Source: Haloplanus sp. GDY1
GTDB taxonomy: Archaea > Halobacteriota > Halobacteria > Halobacteriales > Haloferacaceae
Reading direction: 5' to 3'
Assembly (NCBI RefSeq): GCF_023703775.1
Contig: NZ_CP098515.1
Coordinates: forward strand, 1-64,000
Length of the DNA stretch: 64,000 bases
This document shows, one piece after another, positions 15,374 through 29,625 of the stretch (positions are counted from its first letter, which is position 1; every line of letters starts with the position of its first letter). Below the pieces are notes generated by a model. It was not told the DNA's origin. It saw only the letters and a list, made by a program, of their open reading frames with translations, and ran no database searches. The translations under genes were made by a program, and so were the position numbers.

Positions 15374-18001
15374 TCACAGTCCGGTCAGAAGACTCGCGAA
15401 CTGGTCGAGACGCTCGTCGATGGCGCCGACGTCGTAGACCGCCGCCTGTCGTTCATAGTACGGCGCCAGCGCCGATGCATCAGGAACTAACGTCCCAGGG
15501 TCACAGTCGGTCGCGATGGTCAACGAGCACACCGGAGCGTACGATGCCTGGAGTTCGCGCGTGACCGCCTCGATGTCGCTGGGGCGGTCGTCGGTGACAG
15601 TGATGATCAGTGGTTCATCACGCTGTGTTTCGACAACTGTCCGGGCGAGACCGATTGCCTCGGCTAGCGGTGTTCCACCACCGCAGTCAGTATCGAGCAG
15701 CGTCGTTTGGACGTGACGCGACTCGACGGTGAACGGCTTCGCAAGGCGAGCCTGACCGTCGATGAAATCAATGATGGCAACACGAATCCCCAGTTTCTCG
15801 GCAGCGACGGCGAGTCGGGCGACCGCCTGTGTTGCAACTTCGATTTTCGGGGGGCTACCGTTGCGCATCGACCCCGACCGATCTAGCACTAGCACGAGGG
15901 CGTAGCGCTTCTCGCGGCCAAGCGTCGGAGTTTCACAGACCCGGGGATCGCCGATGGCGAGCCGATGACCGGCGCGAGTATCGTACCGACCAGCGGTCAG
16001 CCCGCTCCGGGTTCCTCGCTGCCGTTCGAGCGCGAGTTCCTTTTCGAGGACCTGCGCGACGCGGGCGGCACTGTCCTCGACCGCACTCCACTGTCCCGGT
16101 GGGACGAGGTCGTCGCTGACCGGGACGAACACGACATCGTCGAGACGCTCCGGTCCGGCACCGTTCCCGCCTGCACCCGTCTCTGTCGATGACTTAGTCC
16201 CGTCCTCCCGGTGGTCCTCGTCGCCTTGGTGCCCCCGACCCAAGACGTCACCGAGGTCGCGAAGCTCTCGCTCGACAGCCTCCCGGTCGACCTGCTCTCG
16301 GGCCGCCTCTTGTTGGGCGACTTCACGGTCGTGTTCGAGCGCCTGTCCGTACTCTGTCGGCGACGGTGCGGCCCGCTCGACACGCTCGTGAGCTGGCCCC
16401 GGCTCCGGTTCGTCCGTTGCTGCGGACTCGCCATCTCCATCGCGATGTTCTATCTGTTCATCCTCGCCAGACGGGATTGGATCGTTCGAGGGGCCGCTCA
16501 GGTTGTTAGTCTCCGCAGATTCGGTGGCTCTCGCTCCGGCGTCGAACGCATCGAGTGGTGTCTGGACCGACTGGTCGTGGGGAGTGGCTCGTTCATTTAT
16601 CGTAGCTGATGGGGACGATGGATCAGTCCTGTCTCCCGAATCGTCCCGATTATCGCGAGCGCGCTCGACAGCCGCCGCGAGTGCGTGGGATCTCGACGGG
16701 TACTCCGCTGGCTCCTCGCTGCTTTCGATGGATGAGTCTGCTCGCGACGCTGAACAGTCGTCCGCTATCGACGGCTCTTGGTCACCTTTCTGATCGTCCT
16801 CCTTCTGGCGGCCTGGAGTCGATGCGGTGTCACCAGTGACGTCCTCGGTATCCGGCTCGGGCGAGCTGACCGTGCCGTCCGTATCCTCTCTGGCGGGATC
16901 CGGCGTCATCGCGGGATGGTCGAACACGTCCTGATACGGGTCCACCGTTGCCTCGCGATCGACCGAGACCCCAGTTGCCTCGGGAGTACTAGCAGGTCCC
17001 TCCTCCTGCGGCGAATGGTCGTGCCCGTCAGTTCCCGAGTCAGCGCCATCGTGGCTCTGCGAGTCGCCTGTTGGCTCGACGGCGCTCGCGACGACTGGCT
17101 GGAGCGTCGACGTCCAGGTGTCGATAACACGGCGAGCCCGCTCGACCGAGGCGGTCTTGTCGTGCCTGTGGGTCGCGTCGTCGAGGTCGACACCTCGAAT
17201 AGCGAGAGCATCAGCGGCGAGCTGAGTCAGTGCATCTTGTACCGACCGAAAAGCGATCTCGTCGGCTTCGGAGACGAACCCGATGCGGTCGTCGTCCCCG
17301 TTGAGCAGGACTTCGGTGGTGCCGGTCGGGTACACCGCGGCGTCGTACAGAGCGGTGGTTACCGCGTTCCAGAACGAGAGGCGTGCCTGCTGCCCATCTC
17401 CGAGGTCGTCGGGAGTCTGCGAGTGGATTCGGCGAGTGAGTTCGAGTCGGATCTCGGCCGTGTCGCTGAAGTTCGCGCCGTGGATCGCCTCGTACTCGAT
17501 TGCGCCGTCCTCGACGATGTTGATCATTTCGTGGACGTGCTGATGGTATGCCGGGTCGACCTCGGCGTCGAGCAACGCGGCGATTGGGGCAATCGCTGTC
17601 TTGAGGATGTGGAGGAGCTCGTGGAAGGCGAGCCCGAACTGGTGGGCGTGGTCGGCGGTGAGCTGGTCGTTCAGCGGCACCCGCTCCAGCGACGCCGGCG
17701 CGGTCGTGACGAGTACGAGAAACGCAGCGTCGATACCGTCGAGCAACTGAGCGGCCTGTTGTCGTTCGAGGTCGGTCGCGTCGCTGCTAACCAGCGCGTC
17801 GACGTCGGCAGGGAGGACAGCCGCCGTCTGTACCGCAGGGGTAAGGACGACTTCGACATCAACGCCGGCCGGGAGATGGCCCTGCAGGAACGCCCGGAGC
17901 CGGTCGCGCCGACCGGCTGACGCCCGCACCCGGGCGTGGATATCGGGGGTGAACGTCTCGACGGAGGCGTTCGAAGTGATCGAGGAATTAGTATCGGACA
18001 T
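15374..18001 (-). CDS. Large vWA-domain protein with HELLH metalloprotease-like motif
   Basis: This 875-residue protein has three parts. Residues ~1-290 are helical and contain FHELLHILK near residue 128, an HExxH zinc-protease signature of the kind seen in vWA/VMAP-like proteins. Residues ~310-600 are an acidic low-complexity linker. Residues ~690-875 form a von Willebrand A domain with the MIDAS motif DRSGSM (~707), a GGGTPL loop and a TDD strand. vWA proteins commonly work with MoxR ATPases; the AAA gene at 18822-20423 is the evident partner, although a MazEF pair on the other strand separates them. Chaperone or conflict functions are both possible. Confidence 0.85.
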   Translation of the reverse strand: MSDTNSSITSNASVETFTPDIHARVRASAGRRDRLRAFLQGHLPAGVDVEVVLTPAVQTAAVLPADVDALVSSDATDLERQQAAQLLDGIDAAFLVLVTTAPASLERVPLNDQLTADHAHQFGLAFHELLHILKTAIAPIAALLDAEVDPAYHQHVHEMINIVEDGAIEYEAIHGANFSDTAEIRLELTRRIHSQTPDDLGDGQQARLSFWNAVTTALYDAAVYPTGTTEVLLNGDDDRIGFVSEADEIAFRSVQDALTQLAADALAIRGVDLDDATHRHDKTASVERARRVIDTWTSTLQPVVASAVEPTGDSQSHDGADSGTDGHDHSPQEEGPASTPEATGVSVDREATVDPYQDVFDHPAMTPDPAREDTDGTVSSPEPDTEDVTGDTASTPGRQKEDDQKGDQEPSIADDCSASRADSSIESSEEPAEYPSRSHALAAAVERARDNRDDSGDRTDPSSPSATINERATPHDQSVQTPLDAFDAGARATESAETNNLSGPSNDPIPSGEDEQIEHRDGDGESAATDEPEPGPAHERVERAAPSPTEYGQALEHDREVAQQEAAREQVDREAVERELRDLGDVLGRGHQGDEDHREDGTKSSTETGAGGNGAGPERLDDVVFVPVSDDLVPPGQWSAVEDSAARVAQVLEKELALERQRGTRSGLTAGRYDTRAGHRLAIGDPRVCETPTLGREKRYALVLVLDRSGSMRNGSPPKIEVATQAVARLAVAAEKLGIRVAIIDFIDGQARLAKPFTVESRHVQTTLLDTDCGGGTPLAEAIGLARTVVETQRDEPLIITVTDDRPSDIEAVTRELQASYAPVCSLTIATDCDPGTLVPDASALAPYYERQAAVYDVGAIDERLDQFASLLTGL

Positions 18002-18024
18002 GATGGGGAACGAGAGGTATCGGA

Positions 18025-18054
18025 CCTCTTCGCTCCCTTGTGGCCGATAAATCG
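18025..18054 (-). promoter_or_regulatory. Promoter with shared motif (vWA gene)
   Basis: Minus strand: CGATTTATCGG TATA box, then ACAAGGGAGCGAAGAGG, about 30 bp before the ATG. It belongs to the CAAGGGAGTGA promoter family, as does the promoter of the AAA partner. Confidence 0.6.
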
Positions 18055-18157
18055 TCGGCGCGAAATTACCTCATTATTCTCCGAGTGTAAGCCGGGAGTC
18101 TGAGCTTACTGCCTTCTGTCCGAAGGGCTTTTTAGTATGAATAAGATATGAATATGT

Positions 18158-18424
18158 ATGAGTAAGGGCGAACGCCGGAAGATCGGGGAGCGAGGCCAAG
18201 TGACGATTCCCAAAGAGCTCCGAGAACGGTTCGGAATTAAGGGAGGAGATGACGTCGTGATCCACGAAGAGGCGGGGAAGCTCGTTATCGAACGACCGGT
18301 CACTCGTGAGGAGTTGGCTGAGGGGTACCGTCAGCGTGCCCAACGAACCAGCGAGCTCGCTGACGAACTGGAGGGCGTCTCGACGGAGGCTAATGACCAC
18401 CTAGGCGATGCCCCAGAGTGGTAG
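18158..18424 (+). CDS. AbrB/SpoVT-type antitoxin (MazE role)
   Basis: This 88-residue swapped-hairpin AbrB protein (RKIGERGQVTIPKELRERFG) has an N-terminal DNA-binding strand and a C-terminal helical acidic tail that should bind the toxin. It precedes the MazF gene by three base pairs. A TATA-like CTTTTTAGTA lies about 25 bp upstream, consistent with a leaderless, autoregulated operon. Confidence 0.9.
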   Translation: MSKGERRKIGERGQVTIPKELRERFGIKGGDDVVIHEEAGKLVIERPVTREELAEGYRQRAQRTSELADELEGVSTEANDHLGDAPEW

Positions 18425-18427
18425 CAT

Positions 18428-18787
18428 ATGGCTCTGTCTGTCCGCCGAGGGGATATCGTTATCGTCGAACTCGATCCGACACAGGGTTCCGAACAGCGGG
18501 GAACGCGACCGTGTCTCGTCGTGCAGAACGATATCGGGAATGCAAACGCACCGACAACGATCGTTGTTCCGTTCACCACCTCGTTCGGCGAGCAGCTCTA
18601 CCCGTTCGAAGTACTCGTCCCAGCCGAGGAGTGTGCGCTTCGGGAAGACTCAGTCGCGCTCTGTAGCCAGATTCGAACAATCTCTATCGAGCACCGCATC
18701 ACCGAGAACCTCGGCTCGATTCCGCAAGAGCGGATAGACGAGGTCGATACCGCACTCGAATACAGTCTCGGTCTCACCGAAATTTGA
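18428..18787 (+). CDS. MazF/PemK-type mRNA interferase toxin
   Basis: This 119-residue protein has the MazF/PemK fold. RRGDIVIVELDPTQGSEQRG and TRPCLVVQND are the hallmark strands. TTIVVPFTTS and ALREDSVALCSQIRTI carry the conserved catalytic and core positions. It cleaves single-stranded RNA when free of the AbrB antitoxin. The pair sits between the vWA and AAA genes, which run on the opposite strand, and its 3' end converges on the AAA gene with 34 bp between. Confidence 0.92.
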   Translation: MALSVRRGDIVIVELDPTQGSEQRGTRPCLVVQNDIGNANAPTTIVVPFTTSFGEQLYPFEVLVPAEECALREDSVALCSQIRTISIEHRITENLGSIPQERIDEVDTALEYSLGLTEI

Positions 18788-18821
18788 GAGCGATTGGCGA
18801 ACCGGTTCGAGCGTTCCAACG

Positions 18822-20423
18822 TCACAGGAAATCGTCGAGCGTCTCGTAGGTGTCTTCAGGATACTGATTCGGTTCCGCAACTGCCCACACCTCGTTTTTC
18901 ACCGCGGCCTTCGGCGCGGCGCCGTCCTCGATGTGCTCACAGACGATCACGAGGTTCCGGGTCGACAGCGTCGGCCAGTTCTCGTTCTGGCGAGTCTGGT
19001 GGGCGAACTGAACGACCTTCCGGAGCGTCCCACGGTCAACGACGCGGGAGCCACCGTTGACCTGCGCGTCTAGCGTGTCGAGTTCGATCTCGACGTCTTG
19101 GATGTAGGGCTGTTCGAACGCGCGGAACCGCCCCCGAGTGGCGGAGTTCATCGGTTCGGAGTCGCGGTACTCCCGGGTGGGCGGATTCATCGTGATCACG
19201 ATCCGCGCCGACGGATGGGGCTCGACCAGCTCGCCATGTGCCTTCACCAGCAACTTTCCCTCGTTGAGCAGGCGATGGAGCGCCATCGCAGCACCGGCTC
19301 GCATCACCGGGAACTCGTTAAGCACCAAGACCGACCCGTTCAGGAGTGCCTGCTTGGCGGGCCCGTTCCGTGGGACGATCAGGCCGTCCTCGGTGGGCGT
19401 CAGCGGCCCAAACAGGTCCTCCGTGTGGGTCGCCTCGTCACAATCGATCGAGACATAGCCGCGGTTTGTCTCGTGGCAGAGGTACTTGATCAGGTAGTTC
19501 TTTCCCGAGCCGCGCGGCCCGACGAGGCGGACGGGAACCAGCCCTCGGGCGAGTTTCTTCGCGAGCAGTTCGTCAAGAGGAAGCTGGAGTCGCGGTTCGA
19601 CCGGGACCGCCGGCAGGACGACGTGCCCGGTATCGTCGACGGGGAGCGCGTCGTCGCCGGCGTCGGGGTGTGTCGCGGCCTTTGGCACGTCCGGGTGGTC
19701 CGGATCGTCGAGAACGTGCAGGCCGGTCCCCACGGGGTCGTCGGCGTTGCGACCGACGGCACTGACGTACTGCGCCTCGAGGGAGTCGGGATCGGTTTCC
19801 GCAGTTCGGTAGACCGGTTCGCCCACGGCGATGTCGGTGGTCGCGAGGTCGACCACCCGGGCCACACCACGGTCTGTCTCGGCGTCGAGCCGACGCGCGT
19901 ATCGCCCGGCGGCGGCAGTCGCAAGGTGAGTCCCGACGGGGACGTGCTGGGGTGCCTCCTGGAGGATGGCCGCTGCGCGGCTCTGGGTGAGCGTCCCGGT
20001 CAGCCCGGTGAGGTCGTCAGCCCCAGCATTAGCAAGGGAACTGAACGTCTCGTAGCCCGCGTCACGCAACGCCTGGTCGATGCTCTCGGTGACGACGCTG
20101 ATGACGGTGAAGTCTGGCGTGTCCGCCCCAGTCCCGAAGGCCGCGACGATAATGTCGGGTTCGGGTTCCTGCGGGCTAACCCCGGTGATCGTTCTCGTTC
20201 CACCCGCACCTCGCTCCAGCGTGTAGATTCCGGCGTCGGCACCCTCGTCGATGAGGTCAGCGGCGGCCTGCTCGCCGATGTCGACGTAGTCGCTCACCCG
20301 GAGGGTGACTCGTTCGAGGGGGATCTGGCCGCCTTCGCGCTGAAGGAGTCGCTGTACGAGGTGGCTCAAGACGGCCTGTTCGTCGGGCTGGCTGTCCGCG
20401 TCGTCGGTAGTAGTGGATGACAT
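18822..20423 (-). CDS. MoxR-type AAA ATPase, partner of the vWA protein
   Basis: This 533-residue protein has an N-terminal ~260 residues of helix-rich adaptor sequence with helix-hairpin-helix-like segments (DAGYETFSSLANAGADDLTG), then a MoxR/CbbQ-type AAA domain. Walker A reads VGPRGSGKNYLIKY (~residue 304), with Asn in place of Thr/Ser. Walker B reads SVLVLNEFPVM (~362), with Asn replacing the Asp. An MNPPTREYRDSE strand carries sensor 1. The altered Walker positions may lower or change ATPase activity. I start at MSSTTTDD, since the 31 upstream codons are unlike the family. Confidence 0.85.
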   Translation of the reverse strand: MSSTTTDDADSQPDEQAVLSHLVQRLLQREGGQIPLERVTLRVSDYVDIGEQAAADLIDEGADAGIYTLERGAGGTRTITGVSPQEPEPDIIVAAFGTGADTPDFTVISVVTESIDQALRDAGYETFSSLANAGADDLTGLTGTLTQSRAAAILQEAPQHVPVGTHLATAAAGRYARRLDAETDRGVARVVDLATTDIAVGEPVYRTAETDPDSLEAQYVSAVGRNADDPVGTGLHVLDDPDHPDVPKAATHPDAGDDALPVDDTGHVVLPAVPVEPRLQLPLDELLAKKLARGLVPVRLVGPRGSGKNYLIKYLCHETNRGYVSIDCDEATHTEDLFGPLTPTEDGLIVPRNGPAKQALLNGSVLVLNEFPVMRAGAAMALHRLLNEGKLLVKAHGELVEPHPSARIVITMNPPTREYRDSEPMNSATRGRFRAFEQPYIQDVEIELDTLDAQVNGGSRVVDRGTLRKVVQFAHQTRQNENWPTLSTRNLVIVCEHIEDGAAPKAAVKNEVWAVAEPNQYPEDTYETLDDFL

Positions 20424-20509
20424 GGTACGTTCTGGAGAGGCCGAGTCGAGGCGCACTGACCGCCATCCTCGGTGCCTCCGTCGCTCGATTGCAAGAGCGA
20501 AATCGGTGC

Positions 20510-20542
20510 GTGTCACTCCCTGAGATAGCTTAATATCTCAGG
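20510..20542 (-). promoter_or_regulatory. Promoter of the AAA gene: shared motif and perfect palindrome
   Basis: A 9-bp inverted repeat CCTGAGATA/TATCTCAGG (20519-20542) encloses TTAA, the probable TATA region. Next to it, on the minus strand, lies CAGGGAGTGACAC, the motif shared with the vWA and other plasmid genes. The predicted leader to 20423 is about 70 nt. Confidence 0.6.
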
Positions 20543-20572: not shown

Positions 20573-20601
20573 GTGCTGCATACAGAGCGTCTCTTCAGCA
20601 C
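20573..20601 (+). repeat. 29-bp palindromic end-like element, left of the HEPN gene
   Basis: GTGCTGCATACAGAGCG followed 3' by CTTCAGCAC, so the unit has a GTGCTG/CAGCAC terminal inverted repeat. The first 17 bp match the repeat family exactly. An inverted degenerate copy lies at 22410-22426 on the far side of the TPR-HEPN gene. Confidence 0.6.
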
Positions 20602-20640
20602 GCAGTCGTCATCCCGCACACCGACTATCTTATCCACAGC

Positions 20641-21525
20641 TCACTTTTTCCATTCATCCTCCCAGCGACCGAGACGCATCGGTGCCAGCTTCTCATCATC
20701 AAGATTTTCATCCTTCACTCGTTCCTCCTGCTGGATCGCTAAGGACAGGTAGATGAGAGCAGAGCGAGCCTTCCGCAGGCTCCTGAGAGATAATTCCTCG
20801 AAGTCACTCCGATATAGTGAAATAGCTAAGTCGTCGCGAAGTCTCGATTCGGCATCAGGACCGATCCACATCGGTTCGTGGAGTTTCAAGTAGCCGTGCT
20901 CAAGCTCGTTCCGAGTATCTCTGAGTTCCTTTGCTCCGGGATCCATTGAGGATTCGACGTACATCTCGCTGAAGAACTCGAGGTCCTTACTCAACCAGAA
21001 TAATCCTCGAAGTGCCCAGTTCTCATGTCCATCGAATGCAGGTGCTAGCTTGTTCCGCCCCTGGGATTTGTACCAGACGTTCCCGATGTTGAGTTTGTGC
21101 GAGGGAATGTGAGAGAGGTCGAAGTAGTACTGAATGAAGGAGGCGATTTTATCGAAGAGCGAGTAGGCCATCCGCATGGCAATCCGCACTTTCTCTGCGT
21201 TGAACGAGTAGACAGGGTAGTCGAGCGTGTTCTCTAAGCGGACATCCTTATCTGAGAAGTGGGGTTCATGATTGTAGAGACCTTCATAGAGGAGGTATCG
21301 TGCCGATACATACTCCTGTTTCATTTGGTTGTAGAATCCGACGCAGGAGACAATTTTGCTGCTCTCTTCGCCGGAGACTGAGCCAAGATGTAGGATGTCT
21401 TGTGCAGCGATTGAGTTCGCTCCGAGATCATTGAGTGGATTCAGAAACAGGGTTTGTTCTAAGCACCACTGACGGTACTCCTTTTCCTCGTCAGAATCAC
21501 CCAATGAGTACTCCTCAAACTCCAT
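20641..21525 (-). CDS. HEPN domain part of a frameshifted LA2681-type TPR-HEPN gene
   Basis: This 294-codon frame encodes the C-terminal part of a LA2681-family protein. RDTRNELEHGYLK carries the HEPN Rx4H ribonuclease motif (RNELEH), within a long helical domain (AMRMAYSLFDKIASFIQYYF). Upstream, the frame stays open before its first ATG and reads DQFKPGVLDEEM, which continues the TPR protein encoded one frame away in 21459-22265. HEPN proteins of this family probably act as RNases in stress or antiviral defence. Whether this part is translated independently is unknown. Confidence 0.7.
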   Translation of the reverse strand: MEFEEYSLGDSDEEKEYRQWCLEQTLFLNPLNDLGANSIAAQDILHLGSVSGEESSKIVSCVGFYNQMKQEYVSARYLLYEGLYNHEPHFSDKDVRLENTLDYPVYSFNAEKVRIAMRMAYSLFDKIASFIQYYFDLSHIPSHKLNIGNVWYKSQGRNKLAPAFDGHENWALRGLFWLSKDLEFFSEMYVESSMDPGAKELRDTRNELEHGYLKLHEPMWIGPDAESRLRDDLAISLYRSDFEELSLRSLRKARSALIYLSLAIQQEERVKDENLDDEKLAPMRLGRWEDEWKK

Positions 21526-22265
21526 TTCTTCGTCAAGGACGCCGGGTTTGAACTGGTCGGCATATGTTGCTGAACGCCCTCAAAGTACTCCTTCATCCGT
21601 GGGAAGAGGCCGTCAGCTGCTACTGCCTCGTCTAATTGCTCATGCGCAGCGCGGAGAAAGGTGGCTGCATGTCCGTTGTCGTAGTGTGCTCGGGCATAGC
21701 TGTGGAAACCGATGCCTTTCTGACCTTTTGCCTGTGCGAAGGCGGGATCAATTTCTAGCGCGTGATCCCAGCAGCGGATAGCCTCAACTACACGGCCAAC
21801 CTCGGAGAGGGCGTTTCCAAGGTTCGTGTAGGTTTTACAGGCTTCGATATCTCTAATCTCCGCGATTCCGTCTGGGTCGAGGGCCATTCTGAAGTGGTAG
21901 ATCTCTTGCTCCAAGTCGTCGTTTTCCCACCACCATGATCCGTTATCAACTGCGTTGAGTCGTCTGAGATGGGAAAATGCGTTACCGAGATTGTAGTGGA
22001 TACGGGACCTGTGCCCTGGTGGTAGGTCGCGATCCAGTAGTTCTTCAGCGAGATTTATTGCGTGGTTGATCCCGTCTTTTTTGCCTGTGTCCCCTGAGGC
22101 GTCTACGAGCAGTCCAATTATATTGAGCGCAGGTTCGTCGGCGAAGTCGTCAATAGAGTCGATTGAAAAGAGTTTCTTGTAGACTCCATCAGGGTCTGCC
22201 ACTATTTGTTCATTCAGTTCGAGGAGGGTTTCATTCGGGTCATCGCCAAGCGGATTGTCAGTCAT
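21459..22265 (-). pseudogene. TPR part of a frameshifted LA2681-type TPR-HEPN gene
   Basis: The 268-codon frame begins MTDNPLGDDPNETLLELN and contains TPR repeats (RIHYNLGNAFSHLRRLNAV, TYTNLGNALSEVGRVVEAIR, CWDHALEIDPAFAQAKGQKG). After YFEGVQQHM it slides out of family (LTKKWSLRSTHW), while the other frame supplies the missing continuation. A one- or two-base change at about 21561-21570 would join the halves into a protein of roughly 520 residues. The lesion may be real decay, an assembly error or a programmed shift. Confidence 0.7.
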
Positions 22266-22409
22266 AGATTCTGGTGGTTCCAGCTATGGGACGCGATTCT
22301 GTCCACATGATGAATACTTCGGATATCATCATAATATTCGGTGCCATGTTCCTGAAGATAGAAACGTTCGTGGGAGAAGTCGATTGCAGGAATGGACCTG
22401 AACGATTAG

Positions 22410-22426
22410 CGCGCTGTATGCAGCAG
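22410..22426 (-). repeat. 17-bp end-like repeat, right of the HEPN gene
   Basis: The reverse complement reads CTGCTGCATACAGCGCG, matching GTGCTGMATACAGAGCG at 15 of 17 positions, and is inverted relative to 20573-20589. It is bordered by CAGCAG-GA-CTGCTG. Confidence 0.45.
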
Positions 22427-22479
22427 GACTGCTGAAACCTATCACCGAATGAGGCTTTCAACAGAGCCGATTGCTCAAA

Positions 22480-22761
22480 TCAGGTGTCGTCCAGCTGCTG
22501 CTGGACCTGGTCGTGGAGGCGCTGAGCCTCCCGGTCCGAGAGAGCGGCCTCGGTATCGACGTCGATGCCCGGGATCTCGACGATGTCCTCGAGGGTGTCG
22601 CTCAACGTCTGTTGGCCCTCTGCGAGGACCCGTTCGGCTGCGTCTTCGACCTGCCTGTCGTGCTCCTGCATGGCCAGTTGGATCATCATCGCCGGCGTCC
22701 GAAGCAATTCGCCAGCCACATCGAGATACTCTTGGTAATTTTTGTTGGTAATACGATTTCT
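22480..22761 (-). pseudogene. 3' remnant of a second copy of the 501-aa plasmid gene
   Basis: Read on the minus strand, the fragment encodes NYQEYLDVAGELL, then AMMIQLAMQEHDRQV and TLEDIVEIPGIDVD. It matches the C-terminal ~90 residues of the intact gene at 26039-27544 nearly residue for residue. Homology starts about 14 codons before the first usable start (a GTG at 22719), after an in-frame TAA at 22762-22764, so the 5' part has been lost. The RAMP cassette lies between this fragment and the intact copy. A short protein from the GTG cannot be excluded. Confidence 0.75.
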
Positions 22762-23026: not shown

Positions 23027-23959
23027 TCATTCGGTGACCTTCGGATTTTTCTCTGAATCCTGACACTGATTCGAGCAGGGTTCGACGGGCTTCACTCGGA
23101 GCTCTCCAAAGCCGTACTTCGAGTGACTGCCGACCCGGAGAATACCGCTCTTCGCGGTCTCTACCGGGCGGTCGTCCTCGTAGGCGACCACCTGCCCGTG
23201 GTCTACCGTCTGAAGATTGTACACCTCGCGTTGCATCAGCACCTTCTCCTCGCGTTCACGGAGATTGCGGCGGTCCTCCTTCCACCACCACGGCACGTCC
23301 TGATCGTGAGCGTTCGGGTACTCTGACTCCAGCACGAACGGCGTCACGAGCTCGACGAGGTACGTCTCCGCGTCTTCGAGCCGCGAGTAGTCCAGTTCGT
23401 CGAGGCTAACCATCTGCGTGTCCTTCAACTCGACCTCGCCGTAGCCATAGTTGCGCTTGCCGCCGAACTGGAGGCCCTCCAGCACGTCCTCGCCGAGCGG
23501 AAGTACCGTCGGGTCATTGGCGTGGAGGTAGGCGTGGACGTACCACTTCGTCGTCTGCTGCTGTTTTCGCTGGTCTTCCCGGCGGCCCATGATGGTCTCG
23601 TGAGCGAGCGTCGGATGGCCGCCGTGGACGCGGAGATCGTGCGTGTTCAGCGCATCCCGTGCGCGGGTATCCAGCAACCACGGATGTAGCGCCTCCCGCT
23701 GGAGGAACAGATCGTCGTAGGCCTCGACCTCGGGTAGGCCGCTCCCGAGGTACGGGCGAATGCCTGACTGCGTGTGTTCCTCGGGGAATGCCCCGAACTG
23801 GCCGGGGACGAAGACGCCGTGACTGGCCGACACTGCCGCGTGGGTTTCGGGATCGAGGTGGTGACCGAGAGCGTGCAGGATGGCGTTCCCCGAGACGTAG
23901 TACGGATGGCCGATGTAGTCCATCCGTAGCTCCCACAGGACTTGCTGAATCTCCGTCAT
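23027..23959 (-). CDS. RAMP protein with two glycine-rich loops (Cas5/Cas6-like)
   Basis: This 310-residue protein shows two RAMP-type G-loops: GGKRNYGYGEVELKD near residue 170 and GSHSKYGFGELRVKP near residue 285. The N-terminal IGHPYYVSGNAILHALGHHL resembles the first strand-helix of Cas6/Cas5-like ferredoxin folds, with two histidines. Its start overlaps the preceding stop (ATGA). In CRISPR effectors such proteins cap or process guide RNA. Here there is no array, Cas1, Cas3 or Cas10, so function is inferred only from family fold. Confidence 0.7.
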   Translation of the reverse strand: MTEIQQVLWELRMDYIGHPYYVSGNAILHALGHHLDPETHAAVSASHGVFVPGQFGAFPEEHTQSGIRPYLGSGLPEVEAYDDLFLQREALHPWLLDTRARDALNTHDLRVHGGHPTLAHETIMGRREDQRKQQQTTKWYVHAYLHANDPTVLPLGEDVLEGLQFGGKRNYGYGEVELKDTQMVSLDELDYSRLEDAETYLVELVTPFVLESEYPNAHDQDVPWWWKEDRRNLREREEKVLMQREVYNLQTVDHGQVVAYEDDRPVETAKSGILRVGSHSKYGFGELRVKPVEPCSNQCQDSEKNPKVTE

Positions 23960-24696
23960 CGGTCGGGCCTCCATTCAGCGTAGTCTTCGACGTACTGGAG
24001 CGCCGTACTCCACGACTGCATCCGCCGAAGGTTAGCATCGAGCGTCATATCGTACTTATGATGGTCGGTATCGAGCGGGTGCGCAGTCAGGCGATTCCAC
24101 GCCGACGCCCACGACCGCCACGGACGACTCCCGAGGCGGGCCGATGGTCGATCACCGTCCTCGGCGTCGATCCGGAACGCGAAACGATCGCCGTCGAAGA
24201 CAGTGCGGAACGGGACGACCTCGCCCGGCGGATCGACGATGAGCCGGAGGTCGGCGAACTCGTTCCCGTCGAGGTAGTTGTCCAGCAGCGCCGCCACGAG
24301 CAGCGTGTGGTACTTCAGCGAGGTGTACGGGTGATACACCGACTCATTGAACGCGGCGGCCACGTCGGACGTCAGCCACCGTTCGTGGACCATCTGCGCG
24401 TCCTCGACGCCGATGAGATCCGCCACCTCGCTTTCGATGGTCGCCCGCGAGAACTCGCCGGGATCGTAAGCAGTCTCGCCGGTCAGCAGCGAGAGGCGGT
24501 AGTGGTCGTTGTGGGTCGGGACGGTCTGCTCTTGTTTGTGTTGAGGCCGTGAGAGCGCCGCTGCATCGCTGTCAGCACCTTCAGGAACCGACTGGTTCAC
24601 CGGGACACCAGCGAACTCCTCGCTGGCGTCTTCATGACTCTCGCCGGTGAACTTGTGAGCATCGTGCCGGAAGGCGATGAGCATCACGTCGCTCAT
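23956..24696 (-). CDS. Cassette protein of unknown family, RAMP-associated
   Basis: This 246-residue protein begins MSDVMLIAFRHDAHKFTGE, possibly the first strand of a Cas5-like RAMP. It carries an acidic linker (residues 18-60) and a histidine- and tyrosine-rich helical region (NESVYHPYTSLKYHTLLVAA). No glycine-rich loop is obvious. It is locked by ATGA overlaps between the Cas7-like gene upstream and the two-G-loop gene downstream, so its product surely works with them. It could be a divergent Cas5 or a small-subunit equivalent; I cannot name it. Confidence 0.65.
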   Translation of the reverse strand: MSDVMLIAFRHDAHKFTGESHEDASEEFAGVPVNQSVPEGADSDAAALSRPQHKQEQTVPTHNDHYRLSLLTGETAYDPGEFSRATIESEVADLIGVEDAQMVHERWLTSDVAAAFNESVYHPYTSLKYHTLLVAALLDNYLDGNEFADLRLIVDPPGEVVPFRTVFDGDRFAFRIDAEDGDRPSARLGSRPWRSWASAWNRLTAHPLDTDHHKYDMTLDANLRRMQSWSTALQYVEDYAEWRPDR

Positions 24697-25553
24697 ACGT
24701 CTACCACGCGCTCTGCAAGCGCCTCTTGGAACGCCGGGAGGTACTCTTGTTCCCACGTCTCGTCCTTCTCTTTCATCTTCTGCGTCTTACCCTTGCCTCG
24801 GTCGAAGACGCGGCGAAACTCGTGTTCCTCGTAGAGTGGATTCACGAGGTTGCAGTCCACGATCCCACCGCCGAAGTTCCGAGCGCCGCCGAGCTGGTGC
24901 ATGAAGTCTGTCTGATGGGCATCTAGGAAGTCGATGGTCTCGACGAGCAGTGCGACGAACTCGGGCTTGGGCTCTCGGAAGGAGAGGTGCCAGCAGCCGT
25001 CGAGGTTCCCGACAGCGTCCAGTTCGGCGTTCCTGAGAGGCTCTCGGTTGTCTTCTTCGTTCCGGGAGACGACGTCCCGATTGATTCGGCGGTAGTGGCC
25101 TTCGGCCTGTCCGCGCGTGTAGTCCACGCTGGAGCGGACCGGCGAGAACTGAATCGGGCGGCGCATCACCTTACCGGGACGGTTCCCGAAGCCGCCGAAG
25201 AGGTCGAGAATCACGCACCCGTCGTCGCCATCTTCGTCGAGACAGGCCCCTTTCTCGTGGTAGCCCGCGTTGAGGTCGCGGTCGTAGATGTCGTCTTTCC
25301 GGAAGTTCGCATTGGCCTCTCCAGGGTGGCACACGGTTTCGCCGTGGTTCTGGACGACCCGTTCCATGCCGTGGCGAAGCCACCCCGATAGCGAGAACGA
25401 CGGGATGATCCCACCGATCTGGTTCTGTGGGTCCTTCGGGTCGTAGTTCCCGTTCGAGGCGTGGTGCCGGTCGGTCAGGATGCTGTCCCCGATGACCAGC
25501 AAATCCGAGCGGAGACGAACGAAGAACTCCGGACCAATCTCATCAAGCGCCAC
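24693..25553 (-). CDS. Cas7-like RAMP backbone protein
   Basis: This 286-residue protein has Cas7/Csm3-like features. FFVRLRSDLLVIGDS is the first strand. IPSFSLSGWLRHGMERVV near residue 52 corresponds to the LPASSLRGALR helix of Cas7/Cmr/Csm proteins. CVILDLFGGFGNRPGKVMRR corresponds to the FG loop. A late glycine stretch reads HQLGGARNFGGGIVDC. A GTG start at 25553 overlaps the stop of the 68-aa gene and removes an arginine-rich extension. Family members polymerise along guide RNA. It is probably the backbone of a stand-alone RAMP complex. Confidence 0.75.
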   Translation of the reverse strand: MALDEIGPEFFVRLRSDLLVIGDSILTDRHHASNGNYDPKDPQNQIGGIIPSFSLSGWLRHGMERVVQNHGETVCHPGEANANFRKDDIYDRDLNAGYHEKGACLDEDGDDGCVILDLFGGFGNRPGKVMRRPIQFSPVRSSVDYTRGQAEGHYRRINRDVVSRNEEDNREPLRNAELDAVGNLDGCWHLSFREPKPEFVALLVETIDFLDAHQTDFMHQLGGARNFGGGIVDCNLVNPLYEEHEFRRVFDRGKGKTQKMKEKDETWEQEYLPAFQEALAERVVDV

Positions 25554-25749
25554 GGAGGTCCTCCGGTGGCTCGGTCTCGGGCGGAACGGCCCACTCCCTT
25601 GGAACGTAACCACGTCGTTCGATGCACTTAGCGTGTGATCGCAACAGGCCAATCAGTACGAGCTCTGGAACGCCTGTGCACGCCTGAATGGCGAGCCAGC
25701 ATCTCAGCTCTCGATCAGCACGGTCGATACGGCGTCTGTTCTGGTTCAT
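25543..25749 (-). CDS. 68-residue leader gene of the RAMP operon
   Basis: This basic helical protein (RRIDRADRELRCWLAIQACT, then LVLIGLLRSHAKCIERRGYV) is followed by a proline/glutamate tail. Its stop overlaps the GTG start of the Cas7-like gene, and a TATA box sits about 30 bp upstream of its ATG, so it is the first gene of the operon. No family is recognised. A small regulator or small subunit is plausible. Confidence 0.65.
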   Translation of the reverse strand: MNQNRRRIDRADRELRCWLAIQACTGVPELVLIGLLRSHAKCIERRGYVPREWAVPPETEPPEDLRGA

Positions 25750-25775
25750 TTCGGTGGGTTCGGGTGTCCCGTTAT

Positions 25776-25786
25776 CGTATATAAGG
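25776..25786 (-). promoter_or_regulatory. TATA box of the RAMP operon
   Basis: Minus strand CTTATATACG, centred about 32 bp upstream of the first ATG (25749). It predicts a nearly leaderless transcript covering all four cassette genes. The CAAGGGAGTGA motif of the plasmid backbone genes is absent, consistent with an acquired cassette. Confidence 0.65.
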
Positions 25787-26038
25787 GTCGAGAACCGGAC
25801 GGAGAGACGTTCACCTCACCAAATCACTCCCTCCGTGTACTCGATCGAGTATCGCCTCACTACACTGCCCAGAGAGGGCGAGTCCCCGACCAGGCGCGAT
25901 CCGTGTCGATTATTCGCGGTACCCCGCCGGTCGCGACTACTCTCTCTCCATCCCATTGGTACTGATAAACTGTGTTCGCGGACGCCGCACCTCCTGTTTA
26001 TTGAAGGGCGAACTTTCCGAGTGTGTGGGATTTCACCT

Positions 26039-27544
26039 CTAAGGCCCTACCTCTGTGAGCGTGCGCTGAATCCGGTCGGTGAGTCGCTGTGCCTGCTGAT
26101 CCGTCAGCGCCCTCTCCGCGTCGACCTCGATGCCCGGAATCTCGACAATGTCTTCCAGCGCATCCGATAGCGTCTGCTGTCCATCCGGAAGGACGCGATC
26201 ACGCTGGTCCTTGACCTGCCGATCGTGTTCCTGCACCGCGAGTTGGATCATCATCGCTGGCTTCTGGAGGAGTTCCCCGGCGGTCTCAATATACTCTTGA
26301 TAGGTGTTCGAGGCCCACGACCCGGTGTACTCATCCAACAGCGCAATCAGCAACGACAGCTGGAGGTTGAACACCGTCGGTCGGGACGTGGGAACGGCGA
26401 GGCTGGTCGCCCGTTCAGCCGCGACAGTGGCATACGTGTCGGCAATACCCCAATATCGGTAGCAGTCGGTAGCCGAGAACGGAAGCACCTCGAAATCGTA
26501 GGTGATCGCACGGGCTCGCCGGAGTGTTTCGTCGACATCGACCAGTCGCGTCTCGACGTCGTCGTAGATCGACGCCCACCACTCGCTGATGGGCACCCGG
26601 TCGTTCGCGCGCTCGTGATCGGCGTTGGTCGCCTGTCCGTAGTGCCGGCGAGTGTACCGCTGGCCCGTATCCGGAACGACTGTTTCGCTATCCGGGAAGT
26701 ACAGGATCGGCTTCGCCCACAGCGTCTGCGTTCCCCGGAAGTCGTACCCCGTCTCGAAGCCGCCGTACACGACCAGATCATCATCTGAATCCGGCGCTTC
26801 GGCCTCCCGAACGCGACCAGCCCCGAGGGCATCGATATCGTCCTCCTCGTCGTCGATGTCGACTACCTCCTCAGGCGGGCAGACGACCTGCCTGAGGCTG
26901 GGACAGACGACGAACAGCTTGAGCATCCCGCCCCAGTCGCGGTAGCTCAGCCAGCCGAATGTCCCGGTTTCACCCCGTCCCCGGAGTGCAGTGATGATTG
27001 GCTGGTAGGCTTCTTGCGGATTGATGATCGAGTAGCGGTTGGAGGCGATCTGCCAGCGGAACCGAACGTCATAGCCCAGCGCACACAGCGCCTTCCGTCG
27101 CCGGTCGACGATGTCCTGGTGATCGTCGACGGGGACGATCGGCTCGGCGTCGGTCTGTGCGGCCAGTTCGTCCAGCGAGCGTCCGGCCGTCCGTTCGAGT
27201 GCATCCGTATCGAGTCCGTGAGCCGACTCGATAGCGGTGATGTCGACGGTGCCGTCGGTTTCAACGAATTCATTGGTCGCCCAGAGTTCCCCGGAACTGG
27301 CTCGTGGCAGCACCGCGACGGCCTGCTCAAGTGCCGTCACGCTGTCGTCTCCACACCAGGCGTCCGGTGAACGCTCGTCGTTTCCGGGGACCGCCTCCGC
27401 GTCGCCGTCGGTGAGTCCGGCGAACCGAAGCGTGTATTCTTCGGCGATGAGTGCCGGCACGTGGGCGTGGTCGGCTGCTGGAGTGCCGTCGTTCGTCGAG
27501 TCGGTGCTCCGTTCGTGTCGCTGCGTGTGCTGGTCAGTAGCCAT
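26039..27544 (-). CDS. Conserved plasmid protein of unknown function (501 aa)
   Basis: This acidic 501-residue protein has a middle region of alternating strands (LWATNEFVETDGTVDITAIE, KLFVVCPSLRQVVCPPEEVV, LVVYGGFETGYDF). Its C-terminal ~90 residues (AMMIQLAVQEHDRQV, then TLSDALEDIVEIPGIEVD) are helical, and a second copy of them survives at 22480-22761. The start at MATDQHTQ is 12 codons inside a longer frame. The promoter carries CAAGGGAGTGA. No known domain is evident; conserved duplication suggests a backbone gene of this element family. Confidence 0.7.
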   Translation of the reverse strand: MATDQHTQRHERSTDSTNDGTPAADHAHVPALIAEEYTLRFAGLTDGDAEAVPGNDERSPDAWCGDDSVTALEQAVAVLPRASSGELWATNEFVETDGTVDITAIESAHGLDTDALERTAGRSLDELAAQTDAEPIVPVDDHQDIVDRRRKALCALGYDVRFRWQIASNRYSIINPQEAYQPIITALRGRGETGTFGWLSYRDWGGMLKLFVVCPSLRQVVCPPEEVVDIDDEEDDIDALGAGRVREAEAPDSDDDLVVYGGFETGYDFRGTQTLWAKPILYFPDSETVVPDTGQRYTRRHYGQATNADHERANDRVPISEWWASIYDDVETRLVDVDETLRRARAITYDFEVLPFSATDCYRYWGIADTYATVAAERATSLAVPTSRPTVFNLQLSLLIALLDEYTGSWASNTYQEYIETAGELLQKPAMMIQLAVQEHDRQVKDQRDRVLPDGQQTLSDALEDIVEIPGIEVDAERALTDQQAQRLTDRIQRTLTEVGP

Positions 27545-27613
27545 GTTTGAGTTTGGGTGAAGAGCGTTCGGCGCCACGGGCGCCAGCCGAGACGGTTACT
27601 CGACTGCTCTCGA

Positions 27614-28356: not shown

Positions 28357-29625
28357 TTACTCCAGAGGTAACTCACAGGTTCGTGCGCTGTTCGTTGGGG
28401 TTTCTGCCGGGGCGTCTGTGGTCGAACGCCACTGATGATTGTCCCACTGGAACCGCACGGGCCGGGCCATCGGCCTGACTGCTCCGCTCGCTTGTTCGGC
28501 GAGGATGTTTCGAGCACCGACGAGGTCGGCGTGCCCACGGAACTGACACCGCTGGCAATAAAACGAGTCGCCGTCCCGGACGGTGTTCTCACGAACTCCG
28601 CACCGCGGGCATCGCTGGCTCGTCCACGCTTCGGAGACTTCCCGAACGTCGATCCCGTACTCCTCGCTGACACACGAGAGCCGGTCGGTGAACCGGCGGT
28701 GCGCCCAAAACGAGTGCGTCTTTTGATTTACTTTGACACACCAGTGATCCATGACGATATCCGTGAGGTCACCTACGAAGACGGTCGCCACGCCTTCGGC
28801 GTGGAGTCGCTTGACGAGCGTGCGAACGAGGACATCCTGAGCGTGGTTGCGCTGGCGGGTGCGTTTGCGATACAGCCGTTTGATCCGCCGGCTGGAGCGA
28901 CGCCCTTCAGGAAGTTTCCCAGCGAGGGCCGCGATATGCTCTGTGATGGCTCGATACTGATCAAAGAGCGGTCGTCCCTCGAAGAGATACTGTGACCCAC
29001 CGCTCGTCGAGCAGGCGACCAGGTTGTTCGCGCCAATATCCACAGCGGCTTCTGTTTCACCCAGTGACGTCTCCAGGGCGGACTGATTAACGGCGACTGA
29101 TTGGTACGCCCGGTACTGCTTTGCGACCTCATCATAGTTGATCACCAGACGTCCCCGCGTGCCTTTCCACCGTGGAACCCCGCGAACCGGCAGTCGTAGC
29201 CGTTCGCGGTACCTGAGACCGAACTCCTCTTTCAATTTCTGGCCGATTAGGAGGTCGATCCGAGAACGAGACCCCCACTCGATAGTGTATGTATCGTTCC
29301 GCAGATAGACCCGGAGATCACGCCCATCGTCCTGATTCCCCCAGTACCCCGGCGGACTTGTCGAGTGGTCTTTTCGACGCTCGAAGAACGACCGCCACGC
29401 CTCGTCGTTCACGCGCCGTACCGTCTGGACCGTCGCGGCACCGAGGCGGCTCTTATACCGGTCCCCACAGTCCGACCCCTCCCAGACGGGATCACCCGCG
29501 AAGAGCCGTTGGCGGCGTTCGTACGTCAACTCGTTCCAGAAGCTCGCTGACGCATCCAGCAACCGTCGGAGACACTCCTCGTCGTCGAGGTCTGGTGCGA
29601 TCACAAACGTATTCGTGCGTCTCAT
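28357..29625 (-). CDS. TnpB-type RNA-guided nuclease homolog (IS200/IS605, IS1341-type)
   Basis: This 422-residue protein has the TnpB layout. RuvC I: DIGANNLVAC (D196). RuvC II region: TVFVGDLTDI, where the usual catalytic Glu is Gly285, followed by D286. A zinc ribbon with C339, C342, C357 and C360, then RuvC III GHADLVGARNI (D367). There is no TnpA gene nearby, so any mobility would be supplied in trans. The promoter resembles that of plasmid backbone genes. Canonical TnpB cleaves DNA guided by a 3'-derived RNA; the missing Glu may reduce or remove cleavage unless D286 substitutes. Confidence 0.9.
   Translation of the reverse strand: MRRTNTFVIAPDLDDEECLRRLLDASASFWNELTYERRQRLFAGDPVWEGSDCGDRYKSRLGAATVQTVRRVNDEAWRSFFERRKDHSTSPPGYWGNQDDGRDLRVYLRNDTYTIEWGSRSRIDLLIGQKLKEEFGLRYRERLRLPVRGVPRWKGTRGRLVINYDEVAKQYRAYQSVAVNQSALETSLGETEAAVDIGANNLVACSTSGGSQYLFEGRPLFDQYRAITEHIAALAGKLPEGRRSSRRIKRLYRKRTRQRNHAQDVLVRTLVKRLHAEGVATVFVGDLTDIVMDHWCVKVNQKTHSFWAHRRFTDRLSCVSEEYGIDVREVSEAWTSQRCPRCGVRENTVRDGDSFYCQRCQFRGHADLVGARNILAEQASGAVRPMARPVRFQWDNHQWRSTTDAPAETPTNSARTCELPLE

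Follow-up and report, generated by a model that had tools for sequence, protein, structure and literature searches.

A TPR-HEPN (LA2681-type) RNase gene of Haloplanus sp. GDY1, probably inactivated by a recent single-nucleotide deletion

The minus strand of the window (the whole stretch of DNA that was analysed, 64,000 nucleotides of Haloplanus sp. GDY1) carries two open reading frames (ORFs) that lie in different frames with a 67-nt overlap, ORF A encoding a TPR protein and ORF B a HEPN domain, raising the question of whether these are the remains of one broken gene, one gene read through by a programmed ribosomal frameshift, two cooperating genes, or an intact gene that was misread during sequencing. 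An earlier note, made from the sequence alone, had claimed that a single TPR-HEPN gene was broken by one frameshift, and that either the decay was recent or the shift was programmed. The features of the locus are given below with reference to its two closest relatives, G033 (a genome from the same family but a different genus; locus L003) and the more distant G024 (locus L004).

21459-22265, minus strand: ORF A, the N-terminal TPR part (268 aa), with Pfam TPR matches and residues 1-234 aligning to G033
20641-21525, minus strand: ORF B, the C-terminal HEPN_LA2681 domain (294 aa), with a PF18733 match and an open frame
21561-21562, minus strand: the lesion, one nucleotide fewer, located by blastn alignments to L003 (G033) and L004 (G024)
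20896-20913, minus strand: the Rx4H catalytic motif RNELEH, with R and H invariant in aligned homologues
21543-21549, minus strand: the heptamer A AAC CCG, the only XXXYYYZ in the ORF A frame
22399-22468, minus strand: a repeat end of ~70 bp and IS/MITE type, with the outer edge GGCTCTGTTGAAA, at the upstream limit of G033 homology
20573-20640, minus strand: the downstream edge of the segment common to G033, with the inner part of the other repeat end kept

Pfam searches matched ORF A to TPR_1 (E = 1.3e-9) and TPR_2 (E = 1.3e-6), and ORF B to HEPN_LA2681 (PF18733; E = 8.8e-77) over profile positions 3-204 of 204, which is the complete domain. The HEPN frame is open for 312 aa without an internal stop following a TGA at 21583-21581, and the R and H of its intact Rx4H motif are invariant across all aligned homologues (alignments A1 and A2). 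The coordinates, strand, frames, domains and intact motif described in the earlier note are all borne out. The window gene shares with the LA2681-like HEPN family (PF18733; PMC3710099) a complete HEPN domain with Rx4H and N-terminal TPRs; the family's link to TPR, fused or adjacent, is seen here as the TPR matches in ORF A and the fusion in relatives. An AlphaFold model of ORF B (pLDDT 73) was mostly helical and gave no significant match in a PDB fold comparison, the best-noted chain being the toxin-antitoxin structure 7bxo only at E 3.4, so the assignment of a HEPN fold comes from the profile match and the motif. Solved relatives found by sequence matched the TPR region only, with none for HEPN_LA2681 among the 60 matches listed, and none of the PADLOC models matched the ORF A half or the ORF B half.

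Alignment to the closest relatives located the frame break. The G033 copy (L003:1498-3126) shares 94% DNA identity with the window over 22468-20573 and reads through as one uninterrupted 542-aa ORF, which argues that the frame break in the window is not a chance arrangement of unrelated frames. In the blastn alignment to G033, one nucleotide is missing from the window copy between 21562 and 21561, at a site that is not a homopolymer. In its HEPN half the G024 copy is 87% identical to the window at the DNA level, and it carries the same extra base as G033, so that the deletion can be attributed to the window lineage. The earlier note had placed a change of 1-2 nt at about 21561-21570; the site stands, and the change is refined to exactly one missing base. 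Residues 1-234 of ORF A align with the intact G033 protein and its final ~34 residues are out-of-frame sequence past the lesion; as this alignment shows, the gene before the lesion encoded a product of ~541 aa, similar to the 542-aa protein of G033. We read the event as a one-base deletion at the TPR-HEPN linker, and not as a conserved frame transition. The G033 copy is like the window copy in its gene limits and upstream repeat end, and differs in its uninterrupted frame and in having both repeat ends recognisable, whereas the G024 copy is also broken, although by the loss of its 5′ part and an in-frame TAG instead of the window deletion, and adjoins AbiEii/AbiEi (AbiE). This independent breakage fits a high turnover of the gene. 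No second copy of the TPR-HEPN gene was found in the same genome, and a plasmid collection gave no nucleotide-level matches to it.

Comparison with homologues, which the earlier note had proposed as a check, showed that the split is not a usual form of this gene. Across 391 genomes of the class, nine haloarchaeal homologues were found besides the window copy. Eight have an unbroken reading frame of 536-578 aa, the ninth is the differently broken G024 copy, and none of the nine is split at the site seen in the window. Among wider bacterial and archaeal loci, represented by the best 80 of 97 relatives (a selection that favours full-length forms), 71 of 80 read cleanly in a single frame for 480 aa or more, and most of the rest run into contig ends or differ elsewhere. 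A frame change at the linker was seen in only one of these 80, L080 (L080:4001-5552, a Rhodopila MAG), and in the opposite direction, so that the finding named in the earlier note as its refutation, homologues naturally split at the same place, did not materialise. Five copies on bacterial plasmids are each a single CDS of 480-578 aa, and phage-borne copies were limited to distant ones, on two IMG/VR contigs and in one phage record. In the family's founding paper, LA2681 HEPN is listed as "fused to TPR, and in operon with TPR" (PMC3710099); separate TPR and HEPN genes thus do occur in the wider family, but not among the examined relatives of the window copy. A natural two-gene TPR and HEPN architecture was rejected, as a split with separate starts is unseen in close homologues. 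The window copy, split by a one-base deletion, differs from the other LA2681 members examined, which are nearly all single frames.

Substitutions between the window and G033 copies indicate purifying selection on both parts of the gene, with dN/dS values of 0.18 (TPR) and 0.155 (HEPN). When changes were polarised with G024, the window branch carried 8 nonsynonymous and 10 synonymous changes, far below the neutral ratio (binomial p = 0.002), and the G033 branch 4 and 13, respectively. The difference between the two branches (8:10 versus 4:13 nonsynonymous to synonymous) was not significant as a sign of relaxed selection (Fisher p = 0.17). Counting only codons with a single change (5:10 versus 0:11) had made the contrast look stronger, which the fuller count did not uphold. 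The protein was apparently constrained for most of the time since the divergence from G033, and the low dN/dS implies that the break occurred late on the window branch, or is a sequencing error, or left parts that still work; selection statistics cannot separate very recent loss from continued function.

The explanation that best accommodates the single ORF of close relatives and the signature of purifying selection is that the window's TPR-HEPN (LA2681-type) RNase gene was recently inactivated, which we consider probable; to that extent the evidence bears out the claim of a single gene broken by a recent frameshift. With a single nucleotide deleted at the linker, the ribosome would run out of frame after residue ~235, and the predicted product would be a TPR fragment ending at 21459, with little or no HEPN nuclease. 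Within the superfamily, it is established that HEPN domains of the Rx4-6H kind are metal-independent RNases, many of which belong to toxin or abortive-infection systems (PMC3710099). When the protein is intact, its TPR part would probably sense an infection signal, or sense or hold a partner, and on infection release the activity of the HEPN part, which, judging from the family, probably cuts RNA and so causes growth to stop or blocks a mobile element.

A sequencing or assembly error, with the gene intact in the organism, would also account for a lone indel within an otherwise constrained gene, and the lesion is known from one assembly, the plasmid collection having given no second record. However, indel errors usually fall in homopolymers, unlike the site of this lesion, long neighbouring ORFs (e.g. 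875, 564 and 512 aa) are unbroken, and the assembly, in 4 contigs, has a completeness of 99.47%; we regard an error as unlikely.

Continued function as two genes, in which TPR and HEPN are separate cooperating polypeptides and ORF B is translated from its own ATG (21525), has in its favour the low dN/dS in both halves. The start codon of ORF B falls at the domain boundary, immediately ahead of the conserved LGDSDEE..YRQWC block, ORF B keeps the whole PF18733 domain, the family is also reported in operon with TPR (PMC3710099), and the break in L080 occurs at this TPR/HEPN linker too. Yet no GGAGG-like ribosome-binding sequence precedes the ATG, the stop of ORF A lies 64 nt downstream of it, which is far for stop-start reinitiation, ORF A ends in ~34 foreign residues, and the two-frame form is known from one genome only. 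This makes a functional two-gene form quite doubtful, and the particular version in which the deletion split a fused sensor-nuclease into cooperating polypeptides, with HEPN made from the internal ATG, would be an improbable case of a fusion-to-operon transition in a defence RNase.

The idea that the shift is programmed fared worst. The shift needed is -1, and a -1 slip at A AAC CCG (21549-21543), which is in the ORF A frame, would join both frames by continuing as PGVLDEE in the HEPN frame. In archaeal recoding, the site X XXY YYZ usually has A or U as Y and any base but G as Z (PMC8211752), whereas the candidate heptamer has C as Y and G as Z. A stimulatory RNA structure, expected 5-9 nt downstream, was likewise not seen, the RNA after the heptamer folding no better than shuffles (z = -0.47). 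The scan for frameshift signals, which the earlier note had proposed, and the RNA folding gave no support to a programmed -1 frameshift. Intact G033 has the same heptamer letters, read in the other frame as Lys-Pro codons, G024 lacks the heptamer, and the frame transition is not conserved, with eight intact haloarchaeal single frames and a split in L080 that goes the opposite way. We estimate the chance of such a heptamer in the usable stretch at roughly 7%, from 0.0027 per position in homologues, so its position is a real but modest coincidence, and the heptamer is judged to be a chance leftover of the inherited Lys-Pro codons instead of a working shift signal. Absence in relatives alone would leave a programmed shift possible, since one-lineage recoding has been proven for fucA1 of Sulfolobus, which is frameshifted in one species and full length in relatives (PMC8211752). 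That gene resembles the window locus in having two overlapping archaeal ORFs that need a -1 shift, and in its full-length relatives, but its shift is experimentally proven, and it offers an A-rich slippery site and a putative stem-loop. The window locus has none of these, and a programmed shift is extremely unlikely here.

The TPR-HEPN gene lies in a segment with the marks of mobile DNA. Homology to G033 extends from 22468, at GGCTCTGTTGAAA, to 20573, and the first ~70 bp of this shared segment (22399-22468) is a repeat that resembles a haloarchaeal IS/MITE-type end. When the whole segment was searched against 170 genomes of the family, 110 had matches, in nearly every case to the repeat end alone; the TPR-HEPN gene itself is in three of the 170. 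What is new here is that the gene sits behind a ~70-bp IS/MITE-type end common to about two-thirds of the family's genomes. In G033, inward-facing repeat ends flank the gene on both sides (L003 1393+ and 3329-), in G024 a diverged downstream end is retained, and in the window the 5′ end is present and the inner part of the downstream end remains, with the outer 13-mer not recognisable there. Because G033 has ends on both sides, the gene is probably IS/MITE cargo, movement being suggested by these end sequences. Elsewhere in the same genome (G000:C4:40015), the repeat-end 13-mer adjoins a DDE_Tnp_1 transposase gene. The stretch G000:C4:40015-42601 contains a DDE transposase and, by eye, a PAS/histidine-kinase-like gene between two inward-facing copies of GGCTCTGTTGAAA, and may be another cargo unit.

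Homologue neighbourhoods agree with a defence role for the intact protein. Besides the AbiE genes next to the G024 copy, a LA2681 HEPN gene directly follows qatBCD on a Sulfitobacter plasmid (L106:2191-3747), and the 120 flanking ORFs of the 80 wider loci include type I restriction-modification genes, six for methylases and five for specificity subunits, as raw counts without a control set. The patchy distribution of the LA2681-like family, and its frequency on mobile DNA and near defence genes, are like those of the window gene.

Several other genes were observed around the locus in the window. On the minus strand at 23027-27577, RAMP genes, Cmr3-like (23027-23974) and Csm3-like (24693-25652), accompany two unknown genes, and the group is probably a haloarchaeal RAMP (HRAMP) locus of the kind described previously (PMC8730458). 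A short ORF upstream of the TPR-HEPN gene (22480-22719, minus strand) duplicates, at 72% identity, the 3′ end of the 512-aa gene of the RAMP locus (26039-27577, minus strand), so the segment borders a gene remnant. Downstream of the HEPN ORF, 15374-20516 (minus strand) holds an AAA_5 (MoxR-like) ATPase gene and then a VWA-domain gene; a MazE/PemK-type toxin-antitoxin pair lies at 18158-18787 (plus strand) and an IS605 OrfB/TnpB gene at 28357-29625 (minus strand).

Knowledge of HEPN RNases and of decoding is unchanged by this locus, which is most likely an ordinary, decaying, mobile, defence-type gene, and the two adjacent annotated genes here should not be read as a natural TPR and HEPN operon. 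The comparison instead points to a defence-type RNase gene of haloarchaea that has moved, probably carried between IS/MITE ends as cargo, with copies lost soon afterwards through different lesions in related genera.
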